In this document: positions 21,685 to 36,551 of the stretch, piece by piece
Position numbering within the stretch: position 1 is the stretch's first letter
How the letters are laid out: each line of letters begins with the position of its first letter
NCBI RefSeq assembly: GCF_000420385.1
Contig: NZ_ATUV01000002.1
Location: 372,001 to 436,000, forward strand
Origin: Hippea alviniae EP5-r
GTDB taxonomy: Bacteria; Campylobacterota_A; Desulfurellia; Desulfurellales; Hippeaceae
Length of the DNA stretch: 64,000 nucleotides
Reading direction: 5' to 3'
Notes under the pieces: generated by a model
Told to the model about the DNA's origin: nothing
Seen by the model: only the letters and a program-made list of their open reading frames with translations
Databases searched by the model: none
Translations under genes and position numbers: made by a program

Positions 21685-21736
21685 TTTCCCACCTCCTTCT
21701 TTTTCTATATGTTGTATCCGAAAATAAACACAAAAA

Positions 21737-21819: not shown

Positions 21820-22106
21820 AGCTATTTATTCGCATTCCTTATTTTCCTTATTTTTTGTTTTACACTACTGAATAACAAAATAAAAGGATTAAAAATATTT
21901 GTTTTTGATATTTAAGGACATTTATTGTCAATAAAGTTTATTTTATGTCATCTTTTATAATGCCTATGAAAATTTGAAAAAATAAGAAAAAGACTTAACA
22001 AAAGCAACAAAAGAGATATCCTTTCGTAAAGAAGGAAAAAAAGGAATTAAAAATGTATTTTGTAGTTGTTTTTTGGTGAAGGTAAAAAAGGAGTTGAAAG
22101 TTGAAG

Positions 22107-22235
22107 ATGGAAACAACGGAAGCAATAAAAGCAAAAGATTTAGAGATTGGTTTTTGGATTCTGACAGGGATTGCCCAAAAATTTGCAGAAGATATGCCAT
22201 TTTCGTATGTGTTTAAGAAAAGAAAAAAGCAATAA
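22107..22235 (+). CDS. Hypothetical 42-residue protein
   Basis: The frame from ATG at 22107 gives METTEAIKAKDLEIGFWILT and ends in a lysine-rich tail before TAA. An AGGAG lies 13 nt upstream, a little far. It sits 100 nt before the primase gene on the same strand and could be a small regulatory or leader protein of the replication genes. Nothing is recognised in it, and it may be a chance frame. Confidence 0.35.
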   Translation: METTEAIKAKDLEIGFWILTGIAQKFAEDMPFSYVFKKRKKQ

Positions 22236-22336
22236 GGAGCAGCCCCGACCAAAGATGCTCCCATTGAGCAATTTTGCAAGTCCAAAAACCGCCCCTTCAA
22301 CCTCCACCGCAAAAGGGGCAGAAAGGAGTGTTACAC

Positions 22337-24381
22337 ATGAAAACTTTAAGGCAAGAAATTCGGTTTGTCAAGGCCTTTGAGGAGACAAAGCAATACCTTG
22401 AAAAACTTTATCCAAACCATGATTTTAAATGGAAATACAGGAGCGGGCGTTGGTGGGGGTTTGCCCTGCCCACAAAGATAAAAAACATCCAAACTTAAAT
22501 ATTTATCTGACCCGCAATGGTAAAGTAGCCTGGCACTGCTTTGCCTGTGGATACGCAGGAACCCTTTTTCAAAAGGACAAAGAAAAAGAGCTTCAAGAAT
22601 TAGAGCAAAAAGAAAAGGATGAAAAGCTTACCGAACATGAAAAGAATAGATTAGAAAAACTTAGATCTTGGAAACAAGAAAAAGAAAGACAAGAAAAGGC
22701 ACAAGCAGATTTTAAAATTTTGCAAAAAAAACCTTTATGAAAAAATTAAAAATTTAAATTTAAACCAGGCAGCTTCATATCTTTACAAACGCCTTGGGGA
22801 TTTGCTCTTTGAGAAAGAAGAGAATATAAAAAAACTCCCTATCGGAATATTATCTTCAGATATCCTTAAAAAACTACAGCTTGCAGAAAAATTTGAACCT
22901 TTTGCAAATACAGAAAAAATAATATTTGCTTATTACGATATATATGGGAACATAACACATTTTCACATCCGTGATCCACTCGCAAAAACAAAACAGGAAC
23001 GATTCAAGACTTTAAAAGTTAAGGAAAAAGCAGAGGGGATTTTTAACGTTCGAACGCTCCTTGAACATCCTGACCCTTTTGTCTTCATAGTTGAAGGTGA
23101 ATTCGATGTAATAACTCCTGTGCTTGTAAGTGATTTTGCGATACCAGTAATTGCAACTGGATCTGTTTCAAGTATCAAAGCAAAAACAATTAAAAGCATA
23201 CTTGAACAGGATAAGATTCCTATACTTGTCCCCGATTGGGATTGCGCAGGGGGAAATACCTTACAAGAACTTATTTTAGAAATTCAGGAGGATTTAAAAA
23301 ACAAGATTTACATTGTGCCTGAACCGCCTTATAAGGAAGATGAAGATAGAAACGCAATTACTGATTTTGATGAATTATTTAGATTTAAGCAAGAAGATGA
23401 AGCACGCAAAATAGCCGCACAATTTAGTTTCATCACTCTTCATGAATACGAAAAAACTTAGAAGAACAAGAAAAACAAAAAATTATAGAAAAATACAGGA
23501 AATATCCAAGTCAATACAAAAAAATAGTATTTGCAAAACATGCAATACAAACACAAGAAGACGATATTCCTCTGGAAGATGCCCTTGATATTTTACAGAA
23601 TGCAAAAGAAGAAAAAGGATTTTTAAATGGGAAGCTGTATCCAGGCGTTTTAAACCTTCTTGTAGCTCCTGGAGCAGTCGGAAAAACCACTTATGCTTAT
23701 TATTTGTCTTTAAAATTTGTAGAAGAAACAGGAAAAGGAATGATATATTTTAGTCCAGAAGAAACTCAATGGTCAACAAAACTCAAGCTCAAAAATTTAG
23801 TTAATTTTTACCAAAATTTAAAAAAACCTTTAGAGCAAAGAAAGCTCAAAATTGTTAATCAATACATAACTTTTATAACCAAAAGAATGGGGGAAATAAC
23901 GACAACTCCAGCCTTAAAAAGACTTACAGAAATCATAAGCACTAACGATATAGGCATGATAGTTCTTGATCCCGTATTGAACTTTATATCGAATGTAAAT
24001 GAGAACGACATGATAAGAGAGGCTATAAACAAAATATTAGATACAATATCTCAAAGAAACATTGTTTTACTTGGGATTTACCACACGAATAAGGATTACC
24101 AAACAATTGCTACTATAAAACAAGAATATGGGGGAAAAGATGCATCCAAAATAGACAGTAAACATGTAGATGCTTTGACAGAAACGGTAAGAGGAAGTGC
24201 TGAAGTAGTTAATGTGGCACGAATAGTGTATTTTATGTTAAGCGATACAAAAATACCTAACAAACAAAAAATCATAACAATTAAAAGTAATATAAGCAGA
24301 AAAGGTATAGTGATCGACACTTTCAATTTACCCTTCCAGGATCAAGAAAATTACGAAAGATATTGCTATGATAGACTTTAA
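22337..24381 (+). pseudogene. Primase-helicase (CHC2 + TOPRIM + RecA-like ATPase), frameshifted
   Basis: Replication enzyme of the element. From the ATG at 22337 (GGAG upstream) comes a CHC2 zinc finger (CPAHKDKKHP...WHCFACGYAG), then a TOPRIM-like domain (FVFIVEGEFDVITP; VPDWDCAGG). A RecA-fold ATPase follows with Walker A APGAVGKTT at about 23670 and Walker B IGMIVLDPVLNF at about 23955, as in plasmid RepA helicases. Three single-base indels break it: a missing T at about 22462, A8 for A7 at 22724, and A6 for A7 at about 23456. Removing them gives one continuous protein of about 680 residues. Alternatively the helicase is a separate gene whose start is lost. Confidence 0.75.
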
Positions 24382-25255
24382 AAACAACACCGTGCAAATT
24401 GAAGATAGTGTGTTACACTATTTACCTTTTTTACCAACACGAACTCGACAAAAAGATTATCAGGTAATTCGAAAATACAAAAATAGCAATCTAATGTGTG
24501 AATTACGGGCACAGGAAAGCCTAAATGTTCACGACCTCTTGATATTATTTGTTTTACTCAAGGACTATCAAAAAAATCCAGAAAGCTGGAAAAAAACAAC
24601 TATAATGGTTAAAAGATCAAACAAAACTATGGAGATCGCAAGTAAAGTAGTATCCTTAAAGGAGATTTGCAAGACAAGAGGAATAATCCCTAAAAAAAAT
24701 AATAGACAAACTGTTTTAAATTCTTTAAGGCGCTTTAGGTATGCAGAAATAAGATACTTATGGCCAAACGGAACAACAGAGTATTCCTCGTATATTTATA
24801 ACATTGCAGAAGAAGACACAGAAGTCAATGTGTTAAGAATAGATGTAAACAAGAGGTTCTTTGACTTTTGCTTAAAAAAAGGCATAGTGATTAATTTGGA
24901 ATATATTTACAAAATCGAGCAAATCAAAGATAAAAATTTAAAACATTATAAAGGATATGCTATTCTACTGATCTTATACATGCAAGGGACAAAAGAGGTA
25001 TTAGAAAGTAAAAGAAAAAAGAAATACTTTTATTGGAGACGATACTATACAGAAGAAGAATTACTCTACGCATCGCACATAGCAGAATTAAATATTGCAG
25101 AAACAGAGAAGAGGAAGTTTCTACAAAGAAGCTTGAAAATCTTGTATAAATGTGGAATACCAGAATACAAATTAGACAAAGAAAGCAAGATTTATTATCG
25201 AGCAGATATAAAGGAAGTAAATGAAAAATTTACAAAAATCAAACCCATCCAATAA
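24368..25255 (+). CDS. Plasmid-type replication initiator (RepC-like winged-helix)
   Basis: 295 residues, starting 14 nt inside the helicase frame. The gene order primase-helicase-initiator matches IncQ-type replicons, whose RepC initiator is of similar length. The segment ESLNVHDLLILFVLLKDYQK resembles the first winged helix of such initiators. The later lysine/arginine-rich stretch (KRKKKYFYWRRYYTEEELL) would fit DNA contact. Iterons lie directly downstream (25269 and 25466-25509), as expected for an iteron-binding Rep. Family membership rests on context and general features rather than a firm motif match. Confidence 0.55.
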   Translation: MIDFKNNTVQIEDSVLHYLPFLPTRTRQKDYQVIRKYKNSNLMCELRAQESLNVHDLLILFVLLKDYQKNPESWKKTTIMVKRSNKTMEIASKVVSLKEICKTRGIIPKKNNRQTVLNSLRRFRYAEIRYLWPNGTTEYSSYIYNIAEEDTEVNVLRIDVNKRFFDFCLKKGIVINLEYIYKIEQIKDKNLKHYKGYAILLILYMQGTKEVLESKRKKKYFYWRRYYTEEELLYASHIAELNIAETEKRKFLQRSLKILYKCGIPEYKLDKESKIYYRADIKEVNEKFTKIKPIQ

Positions 25256-25268
25256 AAGAAATCAATAG

Positions 25269-25290
25269 GGGAAATTTGGTACCCCAAGAC
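25269..25290 (+). repeat. Solitary iteron copy
   Basis: GGGAAATTTGGTACCCCAA differs by one base from the two tandem units at 25466-25509. It sits 14 nt behind the initiator gene. It may autoregulate the rep genes or belong to the origin. Confidence 0.65.
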
Positions 25291-25465
25291 ACTCTTAAGA
25301 GCCAATATAATACAATTGGAATGAAAGCGACTTCATTCTATTTTGAACATATGTTATTTTTAGAAACACCGCATACAAATAATAATTTTCGTGAAATTTT
25401 GCTATATGTATGAATTATATATATAAAATCTGGAATGCGATTCTGATAAAAAAGAAAAAGCCAGA

Positions 25466-25509
25466 GGGAAATTTGGTATCCCAAAATGGGAAATTTGGTA
25501 TCCCAAAAA
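25466..25509 (+). repeat. Iteron array I (2 x 22 bp), putative origin
   Basis: Two adjacent 22-bp direct repeats (25466-25487, 25488-25509) beginning GGGAAATTTGGTATCCCAA are identical apart from the last base. Tandem 20-22-bp repeats next to a rep gene are the hallmark of iteron-regulated plasmid origins. An AT-rich stretch, a palindrome and a GC-rich hairpin follow. Confidence 0.7.
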
Positions 25510-25550
25510 TTTTTGTAACCCCGTATAGAAACAACAATTTTAAGCCCCTA

Positions 25551-25572
25551 TATAGTATCTTTAGATACTATA
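25551..25572. repeat. Perfect 10-bp palindrome with 2-nt centre
   Basis: TATAGTATCT is followed by TT and its exact reverse complement. It lies between iteron array I and the GC-rich hairpin. A related palindrome occupies the same place in the second module (26430-26443). It could be an operator or a duplex-opening/cruciform element of the origin. Confidence 0.6.
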
Positions 25573-25586
25573 AAACTATAAAACCC

Positions 25587-25634
25587 AGCGGTGGTGGGGG
25601 TCGTCTATCGACTCCCCCCCCCACACACACCGCT
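25587..25634. promoter_or_regulatory. Large GC-rich stem-loop near origin module I
   Basis: AGCGGTG...GGGGGTCG pairs with CGACTCCCCC...CACCGCT around a TCTAT loop, with a small bulge. It is not followed by a U-run, so it is a poor terminator. In IncQ plasmids, single-strand hairpins beside the iterons are where primase starts, and such a role is possible here (inference). Confidence 0.5.
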
Positions 25635-25690
25635 TTCTAATCAAAATTGCTTAGACCTATTTTTATGATTCTTATTTAAAGGAGGTAACT

Positions 25691-25836
25691 ATGAATCCTG
25701 AAAGAATAGAGATAGAATTAACCCATCAGGAGAGAAAACCGATAAAATGTATGGCTTTTTGAAACTATCTCCAGACGACAGGGAGTTTGCAGAAAAGGTG
25801 ATAGGGTCTGGTGAGTTACTTTTTGATGAAGAGTAA
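25691..25836 (+). pseudogene. Short frameshifted hypothetical gene
   Basis: A strong AAAGGAGG ribosome site precedes ATG at 25691. The first frame (MNPERIEIELTHQERK) stops after 23 codons. A neighbouring frame continues as YGFLKLSPDDREFAEKVIGS and ends at 25836. The combined product would be about 48 residues, acidic, with a short helical second half. Function is unknown. Confidence 0.5.
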
Positions 25837-25881
25837 AAAAACACAAGCAACTTCCCTGTCTGCAATGCCTATTGGTTTTGC

Positions 25882-26184
25882 TCACGCCACTTCAGGCTTA
25901 ATTGTTTTTAAAATACTTTCTTCTTTCTCCATAGTTTTATACATATCCCACCTGAGCTGTAAATTCAGCCAAAAATCAGGAGTGGTATTAAAGAACTTGG
26001 CCAATCTCAAGGCTGTGCTTACGGTTATGCTTCTTTTACCGTTTACTATCTCATTCACCCTTTGGTAAGGAACCTTTATAGCTTTGGCCAATTTCTTCTG
26101 ACTTATGCCCATAGGTTTCAAAAACTCTTCAAGCAAAATAACACCAGGGTGGATTGGCTCTCTATCTGTTGGAATTCTAACCAT
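25882..26184 (-). CDS. higA: HigA-family antitoxin (HTH Xre), orphan
   Basis: 100-residue antitoxin and autorepressor. PTDREPIHPGVILLEEFLKP is the HigA N-terminus. The Xre helix-turn-helix is SQKKLAKAIKVPYQRVNEIV, followed by GKRSITVSTALRLAKFF and TPDFWLNLQ, all typical of the HigA/VapI family. No HigB toxin is found upstream (26185-26316) or downstream, so the antitoxin stands alone. It sits between the two origin-like modules and could have been co-opted as a regulator there. Confidence 0.9.
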   Translation of the reverse strand: MVRIPTDREPIHPGVILLEEFLKPMGISQKKLAKAIKVPYQRVNEIVNGKRSITVSTALRLAKFFNTTPDFWLNLQLRWDMYKTMEKEESILKTIKPEVA

Positions 26185-26316
26185 CTCTTGTTCCTTTCTT
26201 ATTCGTGATAATTAACAGATATAATCATATTTACATGATAGCATGGATAACATGATAAAAACAATATACAACTTATAGTATTCCAAAACCCGCCTCACTG
26301 TGATTTTTCTAAAAAA

Positions 26317-26382
26317 GGGAAATTTTATCCGACCAGATGGGAAATTTTATCTGACCGAGTGGGAAATATTGTCCGACCACCC
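26317..26382 (+). repeat. Iteron array II (3 x 22 bp), second origin-like module
   Basis: Three consecutive 22-bp units start at 26317, 26339 and 26361. Each begins GGGAAAT, and they share a core ATCYGACC (GTCCGACC in the third). The period equals that of array I, and the first nine bases GGGAAATTT are common to both arrays, while the second half differs. A solitary related unit (GGGAAA...ATCTGACC) occurs at about 32527. Confidence 0.7.
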
Positions 26383-26429
26383 ACTCTGTAATCCCTGTCC
26401 TGATAGGAATTTAGGCGGGTTATATATAG

Positions 26430-26484
26430 TATTCTATAGAATAAATAGGGAGGGCGGGCTTTCTTAAGAAGACGCCCGCCCTCC
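26430..26484. promoter_or_regulatory. Palindrome plus GC-rich hairpin of the second origin-like module
   Basis: A 14-bp perfect palindrome TATTCTATAGAATA (26430-26443) is followed by an 11-bp GC stem (26449-26459 with 26474-26484; GGAGGGCGGGC and its complement). Order and spacing copy those behind iteron array I. No U-run follows the stem on the plus strand. Confidence 0.6.
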
Positions 26485-26585
26485 TTGAGTAAAAAAGAAG
26501 AACATTGCGAGGTTGGGTTATTTTTCTCTCCTTGACAACTCCTCATCCGTAAGCTATCGTTCTATAAAAGCACTGGGAGGTGCTT

Positions 26586-26792
26586 ATGAAAACCTACACT
26601 GCCATCATAGAGAAGTGCAAAGACACTGGCCTTTATGTGGGATATATACCTGGTATTAAAGGTGCTCACTCTCAAGGTGAGACAGTGGACGAACTCATAG
26701 AAAACTTAAAAGAAGTGTTAAAACTTCTCGAGGAAGACGGCGCTCTTGAGCCAGAGAGCGAGTTTGTTGGAGTTCAAAATATAGTGGCATGA
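26586..26792 (+). CDS. hicB: HicB-family antitoxin
   Basis: 68-residue antitoxin with the partial RNase-H-like fold: MKTYTAIIEKCKDTGLYVGY, then PGIKGAHSQGETVDELIENL, the HicB signature. ATG at 26586 follows GGGAGG at 7 nt; an in-frame GTG six bases earlier is less likely. Its stop overlaps the hicA start (ATGA). The antitoxin-first order is reversed relative to E. coli hicAB but common elsewhere. Confidence 0.92.
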   Translation: MKTYTAIIEKCKDTGLYVGYIPGIKGAHSQGETVDELIENLKEVLKLLEEDGALEPESEFVGVQNIVA

Positions 26793-27013
26793 GCAGATAC
26801 CCAGTTCTCAAACCTCAAGAAGTAGTCAAAATACTCAATAAACTTGGCTTTGTAGAGGTCAGGCAGGTAGGTTCTCACAAACAATTCAAACATCCTGACG
26901 GAAGATTTACAACCGTTCCTTTTCACAAGGGAAGAGACATATCACCTTTGCTTTTGAGAAAAATAGCAGAGGACATTGGCTTGACTATTGACGATTTTTT
27001 GTCTTATAGGTAA
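26789..27013 (+). CDS. hicA: HicA mRNA interferase toxin
   Basis: 74-residue toxin with a double-stranded-RNA-binding-like fold that cleaves mRNA when not bound by HicB. The catalytic histidine lies in VGSHKQFKHPDGR, followed by TVPFHKGRDISPLLLRKIAED, both family motifs. It appears intact, so the pair may be functional and could stabilise the element. Confidence 0.93.
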   Translation: MSRYPVLKPQEVVKILNKLGFVEVRQVGSHKQFKHPDGRFTTVPFHKGRDISPLLLRKIAEDIGLTIDDFLSYR

Positions 27014-27211
27014 GTTTTATGAAACTCAAAATCATCCTTGAGCCCGTAGAAAACAAATGCAACAAAATCTAAATTTTGTTGTAAAGTGTTCCCAAAACCA
27101 CAAAGATGAAACCTATTTTTCTTTGTCAAGACAGAGCTTTTCTCTTGACAAAATACAACTTAATCTTAAAGTAAATGTTGTAATAAAATAAATATTCTGA
27201 GGAGTAAAGCT
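27014..27211 (+). promoter_or_regulatory. Intergenic stretch with inverted repeat upstream of recombinase A
   Basis: Contains an inverted repeat TTGTCAAGA (27123-27131) / TCTTGACAA (27143-27151) with an 11-nt centre. The right arm also supplies a TTGACA -35-like hexamer. The arrangement resembles either a tyrosine-recombinase crossover site or an operator. A clear ribosome site (GAGGAG) precedes the recombinase ATG. Confidence 0.45.
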
Positions 27212-27835
27212 ATGCTACCAATTGAATTAAAAAACAGCTATTTGGTAGGGCAAACAGCTATAACCTATCTAACCGAAGAGCAGGTAAATGCTTTAACTAT
27301 CGCCTTTCAAAACTGGTATGATAAATCAACTGGAATTTACCATAAAAAGCGAGGCAATTACTGGCTTGTCTTTCTCGTTCTTCGGTTTACAGGGGCAAGG
27401 ATAAGTGAGGTGATAAACGCAAAATATGGAGACATAGACTTCCGCAATGCCGAGATGAGGTTAATCACTCTAAAGAGGCATAATCCAAAGAAGAGAAACC
27501 AGACAAGAATTGTTCCAGTCCCACCGCAGGTAACCAGTGAGATAGCCACCTTTTTGGCTCAATACCCGGACATAAAAGATAGGCTCTTCTTGATTGACAG
27601 AAGCAACTTTTATCGTGTTTTTCAGGAAAGGTGCCAGGAAGCAGGCATACCAAAGGAACTGTCTCACCCGCACATCTTAAGACACACAAGGGCTATAGAA
27701 TTATTAAGGACAGGTGTGCCAGTTACTATTGTGCAGGATCTTTTGGGGCATTCGGCTTTAACGACGACGGCTGTTTATTTGAGGATAAGCGGGCAAGAGG
27801 CTAAAAATATACTAAGAGAAAAAGGGTTAGTTTAG
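27212..27835 (+). CDS. Compact tyrosine recombinase A (Xer-like)
   Basis: 207-residue site-specific recombinase. The catalytic residues are all present: Arg in TGARISEV, Lys in the beta-hairpin LITLKRHNPKK, HILRHTRA, LLGHS and Tyr in AVYLRIS. Only about 40 residues precede the catalytic domain, so the usual core-binding domain is shortened or absent. A second copy about three quarters identical (by eye) is encoded at 30465-31022. The two bracket a two-gene cassette. Roles could be plasmid dimer resolution or cassette movement. Confidence 0.88.
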   Translation: MLPIELKNSYLVGQTAITYLTEEQVNALTIAFQNWYDKSTGIYHKKRGNYWLVFLVLRFTGARISEVINAKYGDIDFRNAEMRLITLKRHNPKKRNQTRIVPVPPQVTSEIATFLAQYPDIKDRLFLIDRSNFYRVFQERCQEAGIPKELSHPHILRHTRAIELLRTGVPVTIVQDLLGHSALTTTAVYLRISGQEAKNILREKGLV

Positions 27836-27870
27836 CCTCTTTTAAGTAAAATTATGGATGAGGTGCTATA

Positions 27871-29094
27871 ATGAGAAAAATAAAAATAGAAATAAAAAAC
27901 AAAGAATTACTTATTAAAATTTTCAAAACGATTTCTTGGTTAGATACACTTAGATGGAGCGTAGAAGACAATTATAACTTTATAAACTTTTTTAAAAATG
28001 ATTTAACCAATTATGAAAAAGTACTCACACATTGGATTTGTTATATTACCGATAGACAAATGTCATTCGAAATCGTATGGGATAAGGGTGGATATGTCTT
28101 TTCGGAACTGGTATATGAATATTCTAGAAATAAAAACAAATCTCCTGAAGAAATTCTCAAAGAACATTATGAAAAATATAGAGATAAAAAAGGTAAAGAA
28201 CGATTCAGATTTAAATCTAACACTAATAATGTTACCTTTGCATCCAGATACGTGACTAACGATTACCAAAACATATTCCAAACTTTAGAAGTTCTGGACA
28301 ATTACAAAGCGACTATCGGAGGAAATGAATACAAAAGAAATCTTGTCGCTTTTATATTGCATTTTATTCAACGATTTAAAGGAAAAGATGACCTTCTTGT
28401 AAGAGTGGCATGTGCTTTGCATTTATTGACCTATGATCTTGAGAGTAAGAGAGCAAATCCTGGCAGAATCTTGGAGATTTTAAGCAGTAAGAAGGAATTT
28501 GAAGAAAAACTCAAAGAATTTAAAAGAACCTCTACATATGGTAAAAAGAGATTGTGGTGTTGTATCAGAGATTATAAAAAAGGATTGTATAATAAGATAT
28601 TTAATAATGCTATAAAAGAGTTAGCATCTGATGATAATCATGCGAACAAGTTATCTGATATTTGGAATAATTTACCTATGGATCAAATAGAGTTACCAGG
28701 TGATGTCTGGAACAACAGTCCTCTGTTTAGAGATAATTTATTTGCGGATGTGTTAGATCTTAATTCCATTCCTAAAACCTGGGGCATGCCAAGAATAGTT
28801 AGAGAAATTTATAATCAATTGAAAAATAATAAGGAAGATATTGGTGATTTCTATCCAGAAAAATTTGACATAACTTTTGACTTTGTACCCAGAATGTGCA
28901 ACAAAAAATTATGTAATGTTTGTCTTTTTGGAAAAAATGGCGCTGATTCTATTTGTATTCCAACAAAAGATAAATACTGTCCTGTAGCTCTATTAAGCTG
29001 TGGTTATATAGCCGAATGCAAAGAGGAGAATTGCATCGTTAAAGAAAGTATTAGTAGAGAAATATGTAAAGGAGGGCTGAAAAGATTTTCATAA
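27871..29094 (+). CDS. Unknown 407-residue protein with Cys-rich C-terminus
   Basis: Not recognised. It is largely alpha-helical and basic. The first 90 residues contain a conserved-looking aromatic patch (SWLDTLRWSVEDNYNFINFF; HWICYITDRQM). The last roughly 70 residues hold many cysteines (CNKKLCNVCLFGKNGADSIC, then YCPVALLSCGYIAEC), suggesting an iron-sulfur cluster or zinc site. Start ATG at 27871 lies 36 nt behind recombinase A. A stem-loop follows the stop codon. Together with the downstream RNA candidate and DUF3800 gene it forms a cassette between two recombinases. Confidence 0.7.
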   Translation: MRKIKIEIKNKELLIKIFKTISWLDTLRWSVEDNYNFINFFKNDLTNYEKVLTHWICYITDRQMSFEIVWDKGGYVFSELVYEYSRNKNKSPEEILKEHYEKYRDKKGKERFRFKSNTNNVTFASRYVTNDYQNIFQTLEVLDNYKATIGGNEYKRNLVAFILHFIQRFKGKDDLLVRVACALHLLTYDLESKRANPGRILEILSSKKEFEEKLKEFKRTSTYGKKRLWCCIRDYKKGLYNKIFNNAIKELASDDNHANKLSDIWNNLPMDQIELPGDVWNNSPLFRDNLFADVLDLNSIPKTWGMPRIVREIYNQLKNNKEDIGDFYPEKFDITFDFVPRMCNKKLCNVCLFGKNGADSICIPTKDKYCPVALLSCGYIAECKEENCIVKESISREICKGGLKRFS

Positions 29095-29140
29095 ACCCCG
29101 TCTCAACTCTGCGGTGCTTCGCACTTTACCTGTCGGGGTT
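29094..29140 (+). terminator. Stem-loop behind the unknown gene
   Basis: AACCCCG (29094-29100) pairs with CGGGGTT (29134-29140) and encloses a smaller GTGC/GCAC hairpin. It starts at the stop codon of the 407-residue gene. No U-run follows, so it may be an mRNA-stabilising or processing structure rather than an intrinsic terminator. Confidence 0.45.
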
Positions 29141-29184
29141 ACTTATCAAGCCGTTGCATTAAAATAAATTCAACATGTAAAAAC

Positions 29185-29212
29185 TTGACAAATATACATT
29201 ATTTGCTATAGA
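29185..29212 (+). promoter_or_regulatory. Sigma70-type promoter for the structured RNA
   Basis: TTGACA (29185-29190), a 16-nt spacer and TATAGA (29207-29212), in a noncoding gap. The predicted start lies around 29219, just before the folded RNA. Confidence 0.6.
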
Positions 29213-29218
29213 ATTTAG

Positions 29219-29295
29219 ATGAAATACTTTTAAGCCGCGCGTGTCCCGCCTATGATCGGGACGCAGCCCCGATAGGGGGTGAGCGGCTTTTTTTA
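29219..29295 (+). ncRNA. Candidate small structured RNA with intrinsic terminator
   Basis: An outer stem AAGCCGC (29232-29238)/GCGGCTT (29283-29289) encloses two inner hairpins, GTCCCG/CGGGAC (29243-29262) and CCCC/GGGG (29267-29278), a three-way junction. The outer stem runs directly into a run of seven T, so the fold also terminates transcription. With its own promoter this gives an RNA of about 75-80 nt. No known RNA family is recognised. It lies between the unknown Cys-rich gene and the DUF3800 gene. Confidence 0.5.
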
Positions 29296-29324
29296 TTTTT
29301 ACTGTCCAATAGGGTTTGGATAAA

Positions 29325-30173
29325 ATGTTCATAGCTATTTCAGACGAGTCCGGTGATTTGGGTGTGACTTACAAAGGAGGAACACGTAGCTTTGTCATAT
29401 CTATAGCTCTTTTAAAAGGTGAAGATAATTTACAGAAACTTAATGAAACAGCGAGATACCTCTCAAGACCTTATTTAGATTCTCCTTTGAGAAAGTGGTC
29501 AGAACTAAAAGGAAAAGTTAAGCATGACCCACAAAGACTGTATAATTTTTATTACTATTTATGGAAGAATTTCAGCACTTCTTGCGATTTTTTTCTTTTC
29601 TCTTTTTTTGTTCTGGATAAAAAAGAGATAGAAAAAGGCATATTTGCAATAGATAAGGAAAATTTCAAAAGCTATATATGGGAAGGATATAAAAAATGTT
29701 TCATGAGAGTATTTGCTTTTTTAAAAAAATACCACTACGAAGAAAAACTTTACCCAAATCCTCCATCAATTAAGTGGTTTCTGGATAGAAATACAGAAAG
29801 AGAAAAAGAAATAAAAAATACAATAATAGATCTCGCTAAAGAGAAAGGAGTTCAACTGGGCGGTCCATTTTTTATATCTAAAAGAGGGCGCGATAGGTCT
29901 GGAAGAGAAGCAGCCACATCCATAAAGATAGTAGATTTATTTGCAGGGGTCGTAAGGGTATCGGTGGAACACTATATGAACAACAATTCTCACTGCTCCA
30001 GAAATAAATGTGAAAATTGCTCTCATCCCAACATAAAAGTTTGGCAACTGATTAACACTAATTTATGCATTAAAGATTTTGGTTTTTGGAAATGGAGAGG
30101 AATGATATATTATCCACCCAAAAACAGAAAAACACACGAAAGATTTTTTGGAAAAGATCCTTTTCTTACTTAA
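29325..30173 (+). CDS. DUF3800 protein (predicted RNase H-fold enzyme)
   Basis: 282 residues from ATG at 29325; an in-frame TTG at 29316 would add three residues. It opens with FIAISDESGDLG, the DUF3800 signature in which the two acidic residues are thought to be metal ligands. KWSELKGK and the late ATSIKIVDLFAGVVRVSVEH segment with a C-terminal acidic residue also fit the family. A Cys4-like insert (CSRNKCENCSHP) is present near residue 230. The family is common in accessory and defence-rich regions, but its biochemical role is largely unknown. It sits directly behind the structured RNA. Confidence 0.8.
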   Translation: MFIAISDESGDLGVTYKGGTRSFVISIALLKGEDNLQKLNETARYLSRPYLDSPLRKWSELKGKVKHDPQRLYNFYYYLWKNFSTSCDFFLFSFFVLDKKEIEKGIFAIDKENFKSYIWEGYKKCFMRVFAFLKKYHYEEKLYPNPPSIKWFLDRNTEREKEIKNTIIDLAKEKGVQLGGPFFISKRGRDRSGREAATSIKIVDLFAGVVRVSVEHYMNNNSHCSRNKCENCSHPNIKVWQLINTNLCIKDFGFWKWRGMIYYPPKNRKTHERFFGKDPFLT

Positions 30174-30464
30174 GTAAGAAGTAACAGCCTATATAAAGCG
30201 GCTTAAGCTATGACATACTTAAAAGAAGTAACACCCTTTATTTTCTCTTAAAAAGTGGCAAAATTTATCCCTAATACCTTCAGTGTTAAAATAGTCTCCC
30301 AAATTCACACAATCCGACCTCAATCGATGAATTGTCGAAATGAGAAAAAATTCGCTTAAAATCGATTTATTTACATGCCCTTTGTAATCCCGCATCCACA
30401 AGCTGGTTTTCCGTGCCGATGCAAGGTTCGGTAGGTAGAGAGGGTTTTTAAAAGGAAAGAGAAG
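30174..30464. other. Noncoding gap before recombinase B
   Basis: About 290 nt without a convincing gene. It contains two copies of AAGAAGTAACA (30176 and about 30222) and short GC-rich inverted segments around 30390-30430. A reverse-strand open frame covers the stretch but has no ribosome site and antisense-like composition. Nothing else is recognised. Confidence 0.5.
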
Positions 30465-31022
30465 ATGAGAGAAAAGGAGAGAGGTTTTTTCGAAGCAGAT
30501 TATGACAATGCCAGAACAGACACAAAGCGTAAGCAGTATGGCAGGTGGTGGCTTATCTTCCTTGTTTTGAGATTTACAGGGGCAAGGATAAGTGAGGTGT
30601 TGAATATCAAATACGAAGATATAGACTTCAGAAATGCAGGGACAAGGCTTATTACCCTGAAAAGGCACAATCCCAGGAAGAAAAACAGCTTTAGGATTGT
30701 TCCTGTTCCTGTCAATGTTACATCAGAGATAGCCACCTATATAGCCCAATACCCACAGATAAAAGATACTCTATTCCAGCTTGACAGGACTTTTTTCTAT
30801 AGGGTTTTTAAAAGCAGGTGCGAAGAGGCAGGAATACCAAAGGAGCTTGCACACCCGCACATCCTAAGACACACAAGGGCTATCGAGCTTTTAAGGGCTG
30901 GAGTGCCTGTGACTATTGTTCAAAACCTACTTGGCCATTCGGCGCTTACCACGACAGCCGTATATCTTAAGATTAGCAATTCAGAGGCTAAACAGATCCT
31001 GAGAGATAGAGGGTTAATCTGA
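30465..31022 (+). CDS. Compact tyrosine recombinase B (paralogue of A)
   Basis: 185-residue recombinase, closely similar to the one at 27212-27835 from residue 25 onward. It has TGARISEVLN, LITLKRHNPRKK, HILRHTRAIELL, LLGHSALTTTAVYL and a C-terminal RDRGLI. The catalytic Arg, Lys, His, Arg, His and Tyr are all present. The N-terminus is even shorter and unlike that of copy A. Start ATG at 30465 has a GGAAAGAGA purine stretch. The two paralogues probably arose by duplication, perhaps together with the cassette between them. Confidence 0.87.
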   Translation: MREKERGFFEADYDNARTDTKRKQYGRWWLIFLVLRFTGARISEVLNIKYEDIDFRNAGTRLITLKRHNPRKKNSFRIVPVPVNVTSEIATYIAQYPQIKDTLFQLDRTFFYRVFKSRCEEAGIPKELAHPHILRHTRAIELLRAGVPVTIVQNLLGHSALTTTAVYLKISNSEAKQILRDRGLI

Positions 31023-31349
31023 GTGTGAACCAGATAGGTTTAAAATTTTCTTGAGACTTTCTATTACTTGATTTCTATATACATCTTCAAGAACACCAAG
31101 CTTTTTAACGAGCCTTTTGCTATCTATTGCTCTTATCTGAAATATTAACAAAACAGACGGAAAGGATAAGCCATTCTCTTTTGATGGTTCTACTTTTAAA
31201 GTGTAGGGAAATCTTAAGGCCGTCATGTTCGATGTAAAAGGCATTACTATGGCTATCTGTTTTATTGGTTTGGAAATAACAAGCGCTGGTCTTACTCCAT
31301 GCTGTTCGTGGCCATTTGTTTTTGGTAATTCAATAAGGTATATCTCCAT
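31014..31349 (-). CDS. MazF/PemK-family toxin
   Basis: 111-residue predicted mRNA endonuclease: MEIYLIELPKTNGHEQHGVRPALVIS, the MazF N-terminus with the G-x-E-Q-x-G-x-RP motif. PFTSNMTALRFPYTLKV and LLIFQIRAIDSKRL follow, as in the family. ATG at 31349 is preferred over an upstream in-frame codon because it overlaps the antitoxin end by 20 nt and fits the family start. It ends 9 nt inside the convergent recombinase B gene. Confidence 0.9.
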   Translation of the reverse strand: MEIYLIELPKTNGHEQHGVRPALVISKPIKQIAIVMPFTSNMTALRFPYTLKVEPSKENGLSFPSVLLIFQIRAIDSKRLVKKLGVLEDVYRNQVIESLKKILNLSGSHSD

Positions 31350-31533
31350 TTTCAAGTTCCTTTTCAAAGTTAGCAAAATCTGTGTCTGTTATCTCGTCCC
31401 ATAAGTCAAACTCTTCTTTCAGCTTTAAAAACTCCTTATACAGGTTTATAGACTCTCTCAGGACTTCCTCTTGTGTTTTGTTTGTTTGGATTGAGAGTTT
31501 TTCTATCTCGTTTTGAATCTCTTTTGAAAACAT
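31330..31533 (-). CDS. Antitoxin of the MazF-like pair
   Basis: 67 residues from the ATG at 31533, which has a GGAG site. EIQNEIEKLSIQTNKTQEEV and LRESINLYKEFLKL form a helical segment like short RHH/MazE-type antitoxins, followed by an acidic tail (WDEITDTDFANFEKELENG) of the kind that wraps the toxin. It lies upstream of, and overlaps, the toxin gene, as is usual for such pairs. Confidence 0.8.
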   Translation of the reverse strand: MFSKEIQNEIEKLSIQTNKTQEEVLRESINLYKEFLKLKEEFDLWDEITDTDFANFEKELENGDIPY

Positions 31534-31682
31534 AGACACTCCTTTTAAAAGAGTACTTTCTAAGATAATAACCACGAGAACGAGATAAAGCAAGTGGTAA
31601 TAAAGGACAAGGGAGTAATTTAATTGACTTTTCTCTCTTATGTAATTACAATGTAGTCATAACCGTTAAAAGGGGGTAAACC

Positions 31683-31931
31683 ATGAGAGCTTCTTTAGTC
31701 AGGATAGGCAACTCCAAAGGTATAAGAATACCAAAAGCCATCTTAGAGCAGTGCAACATAACCGATGAGGTAAACCTTGAGATTAAAGACAATAAAATCA
31801 TTATTGAGCCAGTAAACAGCCCAAGAAAAGGTTGGGATGAGGCTTTCAAGAAGATGGCCAAAAACGGTGATGACAAGCTCCTTGATATGCCAGAGAGTAA
31901 CTGGGATGAAGAGGAGTGGGAATGGAAGTAA
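31683..31931 (+). CDS. mazE: MazE-family (SpoVT/AbrB-fold) antitoxin
   Basis: 82-residue antitoxin. The swapped-hairpin AbrB DNA-binding domain is VRIGNSKGIRIPKAILEQ with EVNLEIKDNKIIIEPV. A disordered acidic C-terminus (PESNWDEEEWEWK) binds the toxin. Ribosome site GGGGGT; ATG at 31683. It overlaps mazF by 10 nt. Confidence 0.93.
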   Translation: MRASLVRIGNSKGIRIPKAILEQCNITDEVNLEIKDNKIIIEPVNSPRKGWDEAFKKMAKNGDDKLLDMPESNWDEEEWEWK

Positions 31932-32242
31932 AGAGATTTGATGTTTTCTTGATTAACCTTGACCCCACCGTAGGGCATGAGATAAAGAAAACCAGACCCT
32001 GCCTTGTTATCTCTCCTGATGAGATGAACAGGCACATCTCAACGGTTATAGTAGCTCCCATGACAACAAGGACAAGAAATTACCCAACAAGGGTTAAGTG
32101 CGTATTCGACAACAAAGAGGGAGAAATTGTCTTAGACCAGATTAGAACAGTCGATAAGAATAGGCTTATAAAGAGACTGGGTAGGATAGATAAGGATACA
32201 CAAGAAAAGGTTTTGAAAGTGTTAAAAGAAATGTTTGAATGA
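31922..32242 (+). CDS. mazF: MazF mRNA interferase toxin
   Basis: 106 residues: VKRFDVFLINLDPTVGHEIK, then KTRPCLVISPDEMN, APMTTRTRNYPTRV and LDQIRTVDKNRLIKRLG, all standard MazF motifs including the catalytic Arg/Thr region. The ATG at 31922 is preferred to an upstream GTG. A hairpin terminator follows. It pairs with mazE and appears intact. Confidence 0.94.
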   Translation: MEVKRFDVFLINLDPTVGHEIKKTRPCLVISPDEMNRHISTVIVAPMTTRTRNYPTRVKCVFDNKEGEIVLDQIRTVDKNRLIKRLGRIDKDTQEKVLKVLKEMFE

Positions 32243-32256
32243 AGCAAGATTTCTCG

Positions 32257-32279
32257 CCCCTTCTCAGGGGTTCTTTTCT
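32257..32279 (+). terminator. Intrinsic terminator behind mazEF
   Basis: CCCCT (32257-32261), loop TCTC, AGGGG (32266-32270), then TTCTTTTCT. It lies 15 nt past the mazF stop codon. Confidence 0.7.
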
Positions 32280-32280
32280 A

Positions 32281-32490
32281 AGTCTCAAATACAGCATTTT
32301 AATAAAACAAACAATATAATATATATCAGTCTAACCAAATTTTCGCTTTTTTCTTTTTCTCACCAACCACCCATTATTCCCGTCCCAACGCCAATATCCT
32401 TAATTTCAGTCTCAAATACAGCATTTTAATAAGTTTTTAGTCTCAATTTCCGCTCTTTCCCAACCGCAGAAAAATGTCGGATTTGAGACT
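32281..32490. repeat. 25-bp direct repeats with inverted partner
   Basis: AGTCTCAAATACAGCATTTT (part of a 25-bp unit) occurs at 32281-32305 and again at 32408-32432. A third, partial AGTCTCAATTT lies at about 32439. The inverted ATTTGAGACT is at 32481-32490. A degenerate iteron-like unit follows at about 32527. No gene lies between 32243 and 32606. The cluster could be a partition site, transfer origin or recombination locus. Confidence 0.6.
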
Positions 32491-32606
32491 GTCTAAAACT
32501 ATTTGAATACAGGTTACATGTTGTAGGGGAAAGATGAATCTGACCAGTTTTGTTTTTTTGTGACAACCTTTTGCATATATAAAAAAGACAAAAGGAGGTG
32601 GAAGAA

Positions 32607-32948
32607 ATGTTTTTAAAGCTTGAAGAAGAAAAGAAAAGAGAACGAAAACCCTACAAACCCTACAATTTGAGGCTTGAGGAACTTACTACGCTCATGGAAA
32701 TTATTCATCAAAAAACAGAGATTGTGAACACAAGTGCCATCAAGGTGCTTGAAACTCTTAAGTCCCACAAATCCGATAATATTTGCGCTATTTTCAAACC
32801 AAAAGACAAAGAAAATACTATACAAAAGGTTGCTACGGAACTGATGCCTATAATGGATAATATGCCCAAGATATTGCATCTCGTAAATTCTTTCTCAGAG
32901 TTGCTTAAAAATGCTTTAGAAGACATAGAAAACGAATCAGATTTCTAA
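32607..32948 (+). CDS. Hypothetical helical protein ahead of traG-like gene
   Basis: 113 residues from ATG at 32607, 7 nt behind a strong AAAGGAGG. The N-terminus is very basic (LEEEKKRERKPYKPY). The rest is helical with heptad-like leucines (LEELTTLMEIIHQKT; MPKILHLVNSFSELLKNAL), consistent with a small DNA-binding or oligomeric accessory protein. It is the first gene of a likely operon with the membrane protein and TraG-like genes. I do not recognise a family. Confidence 0.65.
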   Translation: MFLKLEEEKKRERKPYKPYNLRLEELTTLMEIIHQKTEIVNTSAIKVLETLKSHKSDNICAIFKPKDKENTIQKVATELMPIMDNMPKILHLVNSFSELLKNALEDIENESDF

Positions 32949-32959
32949 GGAGGTAAGAC

Positions 32960-33442
32960 ATGCTATTCCGCAAAAAGAAAAAGCAAATAGGCTTCGAAAG
33001 AGAGGTTAGAACTGACATAGCTTGAAAGGCTATTATCGTTTACGGCTTTCTCTTTTCTCTGATAGTTTTTCTCCTTCACGGCAAGGGCTGGGACAAGCCC
33101 CTTGTCGTATTTTTTCTGCTTTGTGCTTATGTGTTTCTCGTTGTTGCTGCTCCACATTGGTTTTATGACAAACTAAAAGATTATTACGCAGTGTTTGACA
33201 AAAAACTCTCAAAAGTGGCAGATGTAAAAGTTCCAGAAAAAGAGCTTGGTAGGATGGCAATAGTTTATAATTCTATTCTATTTATTTTCCTTTCTTTCGT
33301 AGCATACATAGTATCAAGAGCCGTTGGATATTTTGTTTTTCACAAAAACCCGCTTCCTACTTCTATTTTGATGGTGCTTTTGGATGGTTTAGCTTTGTGG
33401 GCATCAATCTCAATAACAAACAAAAGGATTAACAAAAACTAA
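32960..33442 (+). pseudogene. Small membrane protein interrupted by in-frame TGA
   Basis: A strong AAGGAGG precedes ATG at 32960. After 21 codons (MLFRKKKKQIGFEREVRTDI) a TGA at 33023-33025 stops the frame. The same frame then stays open to 33442 and encodes two N-terminal membrane helices (AIIVYGFLFSLIVFLLHG; PLVVFFLLCAYVFLVVAA) and two more near the C-terminus. TGG (Trp) mutated to TGA is the simplest reading. Small multi-helix proteins ahead of TraG are usual in transfer operons. Confidence 0.65.
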
Positions 33443-33457
33443 AAGAGGGGGAAGTAA

Positions 33458-36400
33458 ATGGCTTACGAGCTTATCTATTACGGCAACGGCCCTATAATGA
33501 ACGACATCATTGCAGGCGTAACTTATGTCCTTAACAGTAGCGATTACGGCACCCTTTTGCAACTTACCATGACTCTTGCTGGTCTTTTGCTCGTAGTCGG
33601 TTATCACAGAAGCAGTGCAGCTGGGTCTCACGGTGGGTTAAGTTTAACGATGGGAGTTCTTTTAGTTGCAACGCTTTACTATGGAGCGTATTCACCCAAA
33701 GTGGATGTGGTGGTTTACGACCCTATCAATCACTTCAATAGTTCCGTTAGAAATGTCCCAATAGGTGCTGCTCTTGTTATATGGACTTCAAATAAACTTA
33801 CTAACGGTTTTGCTAAGCTCTTTGATGAGGCGTTTACATCTTCGGGTTTCCCCGATGAGTTTACCTACGAGCAGACGGGCGGAACGCCATCTGCGATTCT
33901 AACCGTCACGGCTTTGGGCAATGTGTATCCTTCAACTGCGTATTTGTTGGTTTCCGTTGAAAATTACTTGAAAGACTGTTGGCTCGTGGCGTCAAGGTTA
34001 GGAAAGGTTAATTACCAGGACATTTTCACATCTTCAGACATACTCTCTACTCTCAAAGAGGCTGCAGATGCTTTAGGACCAGCATGGACTACGAACTATT
34101 ACGATTCTACTCACCCAACGGGAATAAATGTGACCTGTTCGGAAGATTATAACTTAATTTCCACTGCTGTTCAGAATGATGCTTCCTTAACAGGTGGAGC
34201 TATGCAAGCATTTGCCAACATGTTAAAGCAACTTGGAATTGCTGGGATTTCAACCACTGCAGAGGCTGGTAATCTGCTTCAGGCAGCTGCGAGTTTTGAA
34301 GTTGGTGCAGGGCTTTCTGCTCAGAGTCTCATTGCTCAAGCAATGTTAGTGAATGCTGCAAACCCAAATTTATTACGATTTGCAGATTCTTACGGTTTAC
34401 CTGCGGCGAGCTTGAATTCTGCTATAACCGAATCCGCTTTACAGACCACTTCAACTATGGCTACTTCCTACGCCTTAGCAAGCGTTTTCCTGCCCATGAG
34501 CTTTCTCGTGGTTCAGAGCTTTATAATCGCTCTGTTGCCGCTTATCTTTGCCATGATGTTTATTCCTGGTTTAACCAAGAGATACGGCACTATGGCTTTC
34601 AACCTATTGATGTGGATTGCCTTCTGGGGACCTGTTGCAAGCGTGATAAACTTCATAGTGCAAGATTACGCTAAATACTCCCTCCAGAAAGGCACGGCAG
34701 GCTTAATAACATTCCAAACTATGCCTTTCATCGTTGCTCACGGGCAGACCCTCATGGCCGTGGCGGGTTACATCATGTTTTCTGTGCCTGTGATTGCCTT
34801 TGCTCTTGCTTCGGGAAGCGCCTACGCCCTTACAAGCATGGTTAGTGGAGTAACTGGTCTCTCTGCCGCTGCCGCAAGGGCTGCATCTCAGAAAATCTCA
34901 ACGGACGAGGGAGCTCAGGCGCAGCTGCAGAGTGGTGTGAGGATGAGAGAAGCGGGGACATTGGAAAAAGAAGAGGGTCTTGGTGGTGCAGCAGAAACAT
35001 ACCTGGCACAAGGCGATTTTATGTCTGCTCAATCTGCTGCAAAACACATGGCAATCATGATGGGCTGGAAGAAGATGGTGACTGGTTCAGCTGCAAACAT
35101 GGTTGAGAGCATAAGCAGAGGCGCAGCGATGGGGATTGAGGGAGCGGCAACGGCTGGCGCTTTGGAAGGCCAAAGCGCTCTTGGCTCTATAATGGGAACC
35201 TACAATGCCTATAAACAAGCCGTTGCAAATGGTTATCATGGCAGTTTTGCCCAGTGGGTTGGAGAACAAAGCAAATACAGAGGAACGGCTGCATTTCAGG
35301 AAGCTCAGGCAATGCAAGAAATGGCAAACAAATACTTTGGTGGCGATTTAAACAAAGAGATGAGTTTCCTGCAGGAGATGGCAGCTGTCCAGAGAGTTGG
35401 CGGTGCTATAGGTGAAAAAGAGTTTCTTCGTGTAGCAAGTAGATATGGGTTGTCGCCTGTTCAAGCTGAAGCCCTATTGCATGACTTCCATAAACAGGCA
35501 ATTCTGGGTCAGATTTTCGCTGACATAGAGGGAATAGCCAAAACTGGCGCCAGAGATGGGGTATCTTATTATAAGACTATGAGATACGCTCCTAATATTG
35601 CTGCTTACGAAAGAGGCAAAGCTGGGGAGCAACTGATAGAAGAAAAAGGTGTGCCATACATTGCCCGTGCCGTCGCAAACGAGTATATGTATGACATGAA
35701 TAGACAATTCAACCTTGCTCCAACGCCAGCTCAGGCTGGAGAAAAAGGTGCAAGAGACGCACAATTGGAGTGGCATAAATACGAAGAAACCAAAGCCATT
35801 TCTCCAAAACTGCAGGCAGCTTTGGAAACCGCTGGCAATCTCTGGGGCAGAATACTTGCACCGCAGGTGGATGCGGCTTTGGCCACTGATTCTCAGAAAA
35901 TTGTAGATAGCTACGGGCATACCTTTGCCAGTTACTTAAAAGGTGCTGAGACGCCTGATGGCATGCGTGCAAGAGCAATGGTGGCAGCAGGCGGAGTGGT
36001 GGATAGTTTGAACAAGTTTGTGTCGGCGTCGGTGAAGGAGTCGTTGAAGAGCGAGCAAGGAAAGCAGGCGTTGGCGCAGTTTGTGGTTTCTGGCGGTCTT
36101 AAACTGGGATTAAATCTTGATAAACTGACTGGTGGTATTATAAAGTTGAATCCTGAGGCAGGTTTCAATAAACAGAATATAGAAAAGGCTATGGCTGCAC
36201 TTAATTCTTCAAGAGGTTTCGAAGCTGCCACTAATGTCATGAGAGAAATTCTTACCCGCTCTTTTACGCAAATGAACCTGCAGGACCCTGACCAGGCATT
36301 TGCAAGAGAACACGAAGTTGCCCAGTCTTTGATGCATGGGGACATACAAGGTGTAGCAAAAGCACTTAATATTGACTTACAAAACTACCATAAGGACTTC

Positions 36401-36541
36401 CAACATAATCAAAACAACCTTAATAACGACTTAAATAATATCGACAGGAGCAAAGAGCCTACGGTTTTTGGGACACCTGTGAGCGAGATAACGAGAGTTG
36501 ACGGAGCAAAGGATAGGGAAAAAGATGTGAAATTCCCTTAA
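33458..36541 (+). CDS. TraG-like conjugation protein (F-type T4SS, TraG_N family)
   Basis: 1027 residues. The N-terminal part resembles F-plasmid TraG (938 residues), an inner-membrane protein for mating-pair stabilisation whose C-terminal domain is periplasmic. Predicted membrane segments lie near residues 35-50, 62-80, 345-370, 375-395, 400-425 and 440-470 (FLPMSFLVVQSFIIALLPLI; MAFNLLMWIAFWGPVASVI). An alanine-rich helical region follows to the end. The gene is intact but no other type IV secretion gene is in the element. Its G+C content is clearly higher than its neighbours. Ribosome site GGGGGAAG; terminator at 36552. Confidence 0.72.
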   Translation: MAYELIYYGNGPIMNDIIAGVTYVLNSSDYGTLLQLTMTLAGLLLVVGYHRSSAAGSHGGLSLTMGVLLVATLYYGAYSPKVDVVVYDPINHFNSSVRNVPIGAALVIWTSNKLTNGFAKLFDEAFTSSGFPDEFTYEQTGGTPSAILTVTALGNVYPSTAYLLVSVENYLKDCWLVASRLGKVNYQDIFTSSDILSTLKEAADALGPAWTTNYYDSTHPTGINVTCSEDYNLISTAVQNDASLTGGAMQAFANMLKQLGIAGISTTAEAGNLLQAAASFEVGAGLSAQSLIAQAMLVNAANPNLLRFADSYGLPAASLNSAITESALQTTSTMATSYALASVFLPMSFLVVQSFIIALLPLIFAMMFIPGLTKRYGTMAFNLLMWIAFWGPVASVINFIVQDYAKYSLQKGTAGLITFQTMPFIVAHGQTLMAVAGYIMFSVPVIAFALASGSAYALTSMVSGVTGLSAAAARAASQKISTDEGAQAQLQSGVRMREAGTLEKEEGLGGAAETYLAQGDFMSAQSAAKHMAIMMGWKKMVTGSAANMVESISRGAAMGIEGAATAGALEGQSALGSIMGTYNAYKQAVANGYHGSFAQWVGEQSKYRGTAAFQEAQAMQEMANKYFGGDLNKEMSFLQEMAAVQRVGGAIGEKEFLRVASRYGLSPVQAEALLHDFHKQAILGQIFADIEGIAKTGARDGVSYYKTMRYAPNIAAYERGKAGEQLIEEKGVPYIARAVANEYMYDMNRQFNLAPTPAQAGEKGARDAQLEWHKYEETKAISPKLQAALETAGNLWGRILAPQVDAALATDSQKIVDSYGHTFASYLKGAETPDGMRARAMVAAGGVVDSLNKFVSASVKESLKSEQGKQALAQFVVSGGLKLGLNLDKLTGGIIKLNPEAGFNKQNIEKAMAALNSSRGFEAATNVMREILTRSFTQMNLQDPDQAFAREHEVAQSLMHGDIQGVAKALNIDLQNYHKDFQHNQNNLNNDLNNIDRSKEPTVFGTPVSEITRVDGAKDREKDVKFP

Positions 36542-36551
36542 AACAAAAAAA

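Follow-up and report, generated by a model that had tools for sequence, protein, structure and literature searches.

Partnerships between DUF3800 proteins and non-coding RNAs are an arrangement of a published kind, and a series of RNA motifs (DUF3800-I to -XI in Rfam) has been named after them. To our knowledge, neither the DUF3800 proteins nor these RNAs, which are numerous and look unrelated to each other, have been given a function since the RNAs were described. The protein family (PF12686) has an RNase H fold with a catalytic rearrangement (PMC10910872), and members of it adjoin some Cas12a2 and VI-F CRISPR loci (PMC10910872, PMC12669027). Integron gene cassettes occurring across domains have been described as well (PMC9668308). 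Both kinds of element bear on the locus analysed here, which is part of a stretch of DNA of 64 kb (the window) and whose open reading frames, called in a first-pass annotation, were confirmed in position. The locus is very probably a composite of two unrelated units on a decayed tRNA-Arg genomic island. The first unit couples a small structured RNA that has a promoter of its own to a divergent DUF3800 gene just 3' of the RNA, while the second is the relict of an integron cassette whose single gene encodes a protein of 407 aa. Taken as a whole, this explanation (composite locus, DUF3800/RNA pair and relict cassette) is considered likely.

The structured RNA and its DUF3800-like neighbour

Transcription of the RNA is predicted to start at about 29219-29222 from a promoter (TTGACA-18-TAGAAT, 29185..29214, + strand) which agrees with the consensus in 11 of 12 positions and has the top score in the region; the overall count of promoter-like sites is at the level given by shuffles. 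In the RNA itself (29232..29296, +), an outer stem (29232-29289) encloses two hairpins to give a three-way junction, which is followed by a U-tract, and the structure doubles as an intrinsic terminator. The region 29215-29300 folds at -35.3 kcal/mol (z = -3.8), so that the promoter-driven hairpin RNA proposed in the first pass is borne out by predicted fold and promoter sequence alike. The RNA is a single unit, almost wholly base-paired and without repeats. Compact three-way junctions were sought with a strict scan, replacing loose two-hairpin scans that were too permissive to interpret, and the two strands of the window together gave exactly one, namely this RNA.

The adjacent gene (29316..30173, +) encodes 285 aa from a TTG codon, with an ATG at 29325 (282 aa) as an equally good start. 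Its earlier assignment to DUF3800 turned out to be right, albeit not trivially so: a Pfam search with the window protein gave no match at E<1, and its phage homologue (see below) scores 8.8 bits versus 21 for the cut-off of Pfam DUF3800 (PF12686), but HHalign to 22 DUF3800 proteins yielded 97% (P 8.8e-11) over about 200 columns, with 0.1% for the negative control. The acidic residues of the family are aligned, namely DESGD (D10/E11), E63-K65, D157 and D207. Because it falls below the Pfam cut-off, the window protein is called a divergent DUF3800 relative and not a Pfam-defined member. It is predicted to be, and probably is, a metal-dependent nuclease; as to the RNase H fold of the family, a single-sequence AlphaFold model of the protein alone reached a pLDDT of only 34, too low to be of use.

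The only relative of this DUF3800 clade found is a protein of Marinitoga camini virus 2 with 24% identity over its length. Its locus has the same order of promoter, three-way-junction RNA with T-run, and gene; the promoter (TTGACA-17-TATAAT, at the equivalent place) matches in 12 of 12 positions, and the strict scan of the 8.8-kb phage locus again returned a single three-way junction, also at the equivalent place. In both window and phage, the RNA lies 20-30 nt 5' of the DUF3800 gene on the same strand. Apart from the Marinitoga virus, tblastn of the 407-aa and DUF3800-like proteins against plasmids and phages gave no match; none of the viral contigs matched, and neither did any of the genome contigs searched with a profile of the DUF3800 pair. 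RNAs of exactly this kind are hence known from two places, window and phage. The window pair is minimal, consisting of one promoter, one 60-nt RNA and one gene, and since it is present in this form in a genomic island and a phage, it offers a simple test case for DUF3800-RNA function.

With respect to the described motifs, no Rfam model matches the window RNA, including the DUF3800 motifs with loose filters. As the covariance models DUF3800-I to -XI gave no match at gathering score, the RNA is not filed under any of these motifs, and its protein is likewise beyond the reach of the Pfam model. Its architecture, however, is the same as that of DUF3800-VI (RF02915) and DUF3800-VII (RF02967, the nearest), which adjoin canonical DUF3800 genes in 2 of the 19 loci scanned: an outer stem closes a compact three-way junction, the RNA often ends in a U-tract, and a DUF3800 gene lies next to it. 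With DUF3800-VII it further shares a GC-A-GC junction and a G.U-closed second hairpin. A descriptor built from these two features, applied to T-run-ended structures in 0.95 Mb, retrieved only the window, phage and DUF3800-VII RNAs; as it was composed after three of the sequences had been seen, it shows rarity and is no independent proof. A MAFFT alignment of the three RNAs put the second hairpin out of register. The window RNA differs from the Rfam motifs in lying 5' of its gene on the same strand with its own promoter. In the DUF3800-VII locus (L069), by comparison, the RNA adjoins the other gene end and is encoded on the complementary strand, so DUF3800-RNA pairs have no fixed layout. The window pair appears to be a new form of an already known protein-RNA partnership.

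What the RNA-protein pair may do

That the RNA and the DUF3800 protein act together is quite likely. Most transcripts would stop at the RNA's own terminator to give an RNA of about 75 nt, while read-through past the terminator would provide the mRNA of the DUF3800 protein. This protein would most likely bind its own RNA, and the bound RNA could restrain or steer the putative RNase-H-fold nuclease. Hence, the pair might behave as an RNA-controlled toxin or defence nuclease with a layout like that of type III toxin-antitoxin systems. ToxIN-like systems indeed share the order of promoter, structured RNA, terminator and nuclease-like gene, but the pair has one RNA unit instead of a tandem-repeat RNA antitoxin, and its putative nuclease would be of another fold. 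By this analogy, it is tentatively conceivable that the RNA acts as an inhibitor of the nuclease.

A slightly less probable role for the RNA is that of a cis-regulatory leader (attenuator), in which the DUF3800 protein or another ligand would set the degree of read-through and no trans-acting RNA would be involved. Its position closely 5' of the gene on the same strand and its U-tract end, both found in window and phage, suit such a role, and Rfam classes DUF3800-VI as cis-regulatory; DUF3800-VII, the nearest in shape, is however classed as gene/sRNA, and leader control is impossible at L069, where the DUF3800-VII RNA lies at the far gene end on the other strand. That the hairpin is a mere intrinsic terminator of the upstream gene, leaving the DUF3800 gene as a lone orphan, would fit its U-tract end as well. 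This is improbable, since the hairpin is preceded by a near-consensus promoter that lies beyond the cassette gene, the two-hairpin form is unique in the window, and the phage homologue is arranged alike, there with a promoter that is perfect. Even less credit is given to a guide function directing the DUF3800 nuclease to nucleic-acid targets: the RNase H fold of DUF3800 proteins and the CRISPR neighbourhoods cited above speak for it, but the RNA is almost fully paired, leaving no single-stranded guide stretch, lacks repeats, and has no obvious variable guide segment in window or phage.

A relict cassette with a 407-residue gene

The gene of the 407-aa protein (27871..29094, +) is an integron-cassette gene in other genomes. 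Relatives with 68-79% identity, plus distant ones, occur in about 12 other genomes including two archaea, and the family extends through two lineages of archaea and a large number of bacterial phyla. The Cys-rich C-terminus reported for this reading frame is kept in the relatives, which substantiates the earlier description. The relatives resemble the described integron cassettes in consisting of one gene accompanied by attC sites and in occurring in both bacteria and archaea. In several genomes the gene is bounded by such sites, with canonical attC of 79-82 nt at three loci (L013, L019 and L021), R''/R' pairs 55-58 nt 3' of the stop codon and 5' cassette ends at GTTAAGT. In contrast, the window copy is without attC and outside any integron, in a genome without an integron integrase above cut-off; none exceeded the TIGR02249 cut-off in this genome or in 24 relatives, and the ten cassette-bearing genomes contain only fragments or other recombinases.

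Both cassette ends of the window copy can still be recognized. The decayed 5' end (27841..27870, +) reads TTTAAGT...GATGAGGTG, compared with GTTAAGT...GGCGAGGTG in relatives, when aligned with the cassette starts of L019 and L021. The decayed 3' end (29095..29159, +), a second hairpin region which the first-pass annotation had overlooked, combines a hairpin of conserved sequence with an attC core that has been damaged (ACTTATC, 29141-29147), the rest of attC being missing; here, positions 29106-29148 align with the 3' flanks of L019 and L021 as far as attC R''. Since no R''/R' pair, and so no intact attC, is present within 230 nt, the copy is regarded as a relict and not as a working cassette. 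The reading frame is intact, with dN of 0.11-0.20 versus dS from 0.7 to saturation (dN/dS about 0.1-0.2). These substitution patterns and the distribution of relatives indicate a gene that has been transferred across phyla and is still under purifying selection, and it marks an unannotated protein family maintained by selection.

AlphaFold gave a helical model of the 407-aa protein (pLDDT 71, pTM 0.74) with the C-terminal Cys region unmodelled; Foldseek of this model against PDB and viral models returned nothing at E<0.001, and a sequence search of the PDB nothing convincing. A joint reading can be formulated in which the DUF3800 clade of phage and island and its RNA are a new RNA-controlled nuclease system for defence or addiction, with the RNA as antitoxin or cofactor, DUF3800-RNA pairs generally operate in the same manner, and the 407-aa protein is, separately, a defence factor with a new fold, encoded by a single gene that integrons have carried from domain to domain; as a whole, this is doubtful.

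In several genomes, members of the 407-aa family are surrounded by defence genes. As a side observation, the two ends of the 407-aa cassette, 5' and 3', showed significant long-range pairing in L022 (0/300 shuffles) as well as in L019 and L028 (3/300 each), and not in other copies.

Recombinases, island and the composite locus

Two short tyrosine recombinases flank the units, one of 207 aa (27212..27835, +) and one of 185 aa (30465..31022, +). Both match Phage_integrase (E-values of 2e-24 and 3e-22, respectively), the former with its catalytic residues present and the latter with an N-terminus about 20 residues shorter than in relatives. They are 75% identical over residues 13-185 and lie on the same strand, in agreement with the twin compact recombinases of similar identity and orientation noted before. 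The tight same-strand packing between two similar recombinases had led to the view that the enclosed parts form one cassette, in which the 407-aa protein would be the helical partner of RNA and DUF3800 protein and the twin recombinases would move all of them as a four-part system. This view is highly improbable and has been largely refuted by the lack of co-occurrence elsewhere: no DUF3800 gene stands beside 407-aa relatives in any other locus examined, a search for such pairs within 3 kb failing in every examinable locus. The 407-aa family travels alone, bounded as single-gene integron cassettes, and the DUF3800-RNA pair of Marinitoga camini virus 2 is without a 407-aa gene. Of the mobile RNA-plus-nuclease system suggested earlier, the half comprising RNA and DUF3800 protein is retained, as the phage homologue keeps the order of promoter, RNA and gene, and the helical partner is dropped.

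The recombinases, too, are neighbours and not parts of the two units, as far as shown. Their family is small, the relatives (in G003, G006, G007, G015, G017 and G018) occur singly beside unrelated genes, and twin recombinases around the same cargo do not recur among them. With a dS of about 1.7 between them, the two copies are old. Instead of a cassette carried with its own recombinases, the former mobile unit is the larger tRNA-Arg island of about 27 kb (20096..47044) that carries both units and the recombinases and is now decayed. An empty-site search found no relative matching across the join of the island. Its ends are marked by perfect att repeats of 48 bp (20096-20143 and 46997-47044), and its integrase is split.

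The 407-residue gene as a cassette of its own

The positions of the open reading frames, recombinases and hairpin RNA agree with the first-pass annotation, which had read them as one mobile cassette. Judged by its flanks, however, the 407-residue gene (27871-29094, forward strand) is a relict integron cassette. In loci L013, L019-L023 and L028 from other genomes, the homologous stretch opens a few bases 5' of the ATG, in L013 and L019-L021 at a GTTAAGT-like sequence, and closes with a conserved hairpin, an ACTTAAC or ATATAAC core and then an imperfect palindrome. Canonical attC pairs (RYYYAAC...GTTRRRY) of 79-82 nt occur in L013, L019 and L021; core sites are variant or incomplete in L020, L022, L023 and L028. 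Both flanks of the window copy align to the relatives' cassette ends, with 29106-29148 being near-identical to L019 as far as the attC core, and no attC is left in this copy. A search of the window's own genome for integron integrases gave nothing over the curated cut-off, and ten cassette-bearing genomes yielded weak or broken matches only. Since it is established that archaea have integrons and that cassettes cross between domains (PMC9668308), the vehicle of the gene is already known. Broken integron integrase genes were noticed at G022:C14:32253-33195 (locus L050) and at L084 (240 and 252 bits); the former belongs to a genome of the window's class, the latter to the genome carrying L022. 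Additionally, in L019, L020, L022, L023 and L028 the 3' UTR opens with a sequence (CACCTCGCCCAC) complementary to the 5' end of the cassette, ribosome-binding site included (GTGGGCGAGGTG), with apparent compensatory changes; such pairing could lengthen the attC stem or mask the ribosome-binding site.

Searches of Pfam, NCBIfam, PHROGs and PADLOC assigned the encoded protein to no family, and with respect to these collections the cargo family appears to be undescribed. A search of 386 genomes gave two close relatives (79% and 71% identity), while a wider scan of 85,000 genomes using these three sequences as queries gave eleven loci, one of which coincides with the contig stretch of the second relative. 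Their labels are Aerophobetes, Actinomycetota, WOR-3, Neomarinimicrobiota, Spirochaetia, Elusimicrobia, Archaeoglobaceae, Bacteroidota, Cloacimonadota, Methanoliparum and Desulfobacteraceae. Every one comes from a metagenome-assembled genome, where an individual label could be due to misbinning, but such errors hardly account for the breadth of the whole set. The reading frame is damaged or truncated in the Archaeoglobaceae, Methanoliparum and Desulfobacteraceae copies; in the window it is intact and under purifying selection. No DUF3800-like gene neighbours any relative (several contigs are short), which speaks against the proposed co-occurrence of the two genes. The neighbours observed in other genomes include defence genes, among them HmaB/HmaC and PsyrTA (L019), restriction-modification-like genes (L020) and a Lamassu-like LmuB with a methyltransferase (L021). 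In L019 (7384-10888), HmaB/HmaC lie upstream and the PsyrTA-like toxin-antitoxin begins directly past the attC; it may itself be part of a cassette array.

A structured RNA paired with a DUF3800-like gene

The 285-residue protein (29316-30173, forward strand) had been predicted to be a DUF3800 protein. A direct match to Pfam DUF3800 was not obtained, but an HHalign comparison with 22 DUF3800 proteins, taken from genomes that PF12686 had picked out, identifies it as a DUF3800 relative (97%, P 8.8e-11; 0.1% for the 407-residue profile as negative control), and the DESGD motif, E63, D157 and D207 align with the family. DUF3800 is described as an RNase H fold with catalytic rearrangement (PMC10910872) and as an accessory nuclease at some VI-F and V-A2 loci (PMC12669027). 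Sequence searches gave a single relative, UF09_18 of Marinitoga camini virus 2, with 24% identity over the full length. Directly 5' of UF09_18 lie a perfect sigma-70-type promoter and an RNA whose long outer stem encloses two hairpins and is followed by a T-run, the same order of promoter, RNA and gene as in the window (promoter 29185-29214, RNA 29232-29296). Under a strict scan, compact three-way junctions occur once in 64 kb of the window (both strands) and once in 8.8 kb of the phage locus, each time at the RNA position. The RNA forms with the DUF3800-like gene a pair separate from the 407-residue gene, and two RNAs of this exact kind were found.

Promoter-like sequence, RNA fold, conserved acidic motifs and a gene order kept at 24% protein identity are consistent with an RNA that would stop at its own terminator and build up, and with a protein that would be a nuclease working jointly with it. 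The main rival is that the RNA acts in cis as an attenuator of the gene. Against this counts locus L069: its DUF3800-VII RNA is on the strand opposite to the DUF3800 gene and sits at that gene's 3' end. Type III toxin-antitoxin systems comprise promoter, structured RNA, terminator and nuclease gene. The pair proposed here has the same order of elements and resembles them, but is not a member because its RNA is a single unit and its protein has a different predicted fold.

Structured RNAs accompanying DUF3800 genes have been published (reference 59 of PMC10910872; Rfam list in PMC11701678). The Rfam motifs DUF3800-VI and -VII, both three-way junctions, adjoin canonical DUF3800 genes in 2 of 19 loci. 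Two details of DUF3800-VII recur in the RNAs of window and phage: the junction reads GC-A-GC, and a G.U pair closes the second hairpin. A search of 0.95 Mb (repeated copies of the window region included) with a descriptor of both details and the T-run matched these three RNAs only; as the descriptor was composed after their inspection, this indicates rarity only. Since no Rfam model matched the window RNA, it is counted as a new variant rather than assigned to DUF3800-VII. The strict scan also returned unannotated, T-run-ended three-way junctions beside canonical DUF3800 genes (L054:1317-1382, L058:2231-2292, L060:2272-2332 and L073:1336-1392), compared with one far from a DUF3800 gene across all thirty loci (by-eye count). 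Those of L054, L058 and L060, the three scanned, reached the gathering score of no Rfam family; all four are possible new DUF3800 RNA motifs.

Recombinases and carrier island

The twin tyrosine recombinases (27212-27835 and 30465-31022, forward strand) both match Phage_integrase and share 75% identity, as the first-pass annotation had estimated. With dS about 1.7 (dN 0.24), synonymous sites are near saturation, so the pair is not a recent duplication. Relatives of these short recombinases occur one at a time, each with unrelated neighbours, and the idea of a cassette travelling with its own recombinases is therefore not upheld.

The locus is carried on a 26.9-kb genomic island with 48-bp perfect direct repeats at its ends (20096-20143 and 46997-47044), of which the second coincides with the tRNA-Arg (tct) 3' end. 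No empty site was found in relatives, none of which matched across the join. The island's own long integrase is broken into three frames (20333-21486), and its cargo includes TraG_N and several toxin-antitoxin pairs. The latter are dense at 25882-27013, 31014-32242 and 43797-44993, with a HigA-like antitoxin (by eye), HicBA, a MazF-like gene with an RHH-like partner and MazEF, in addition to a Fic protein. Iteron-like repeats (GGGAAATTTGGTATCCCAA) at 25263-25518 and 26316-26369 adjoin a possible replication protein (24368-25255); the island may formerly have replicated as a plasmid.
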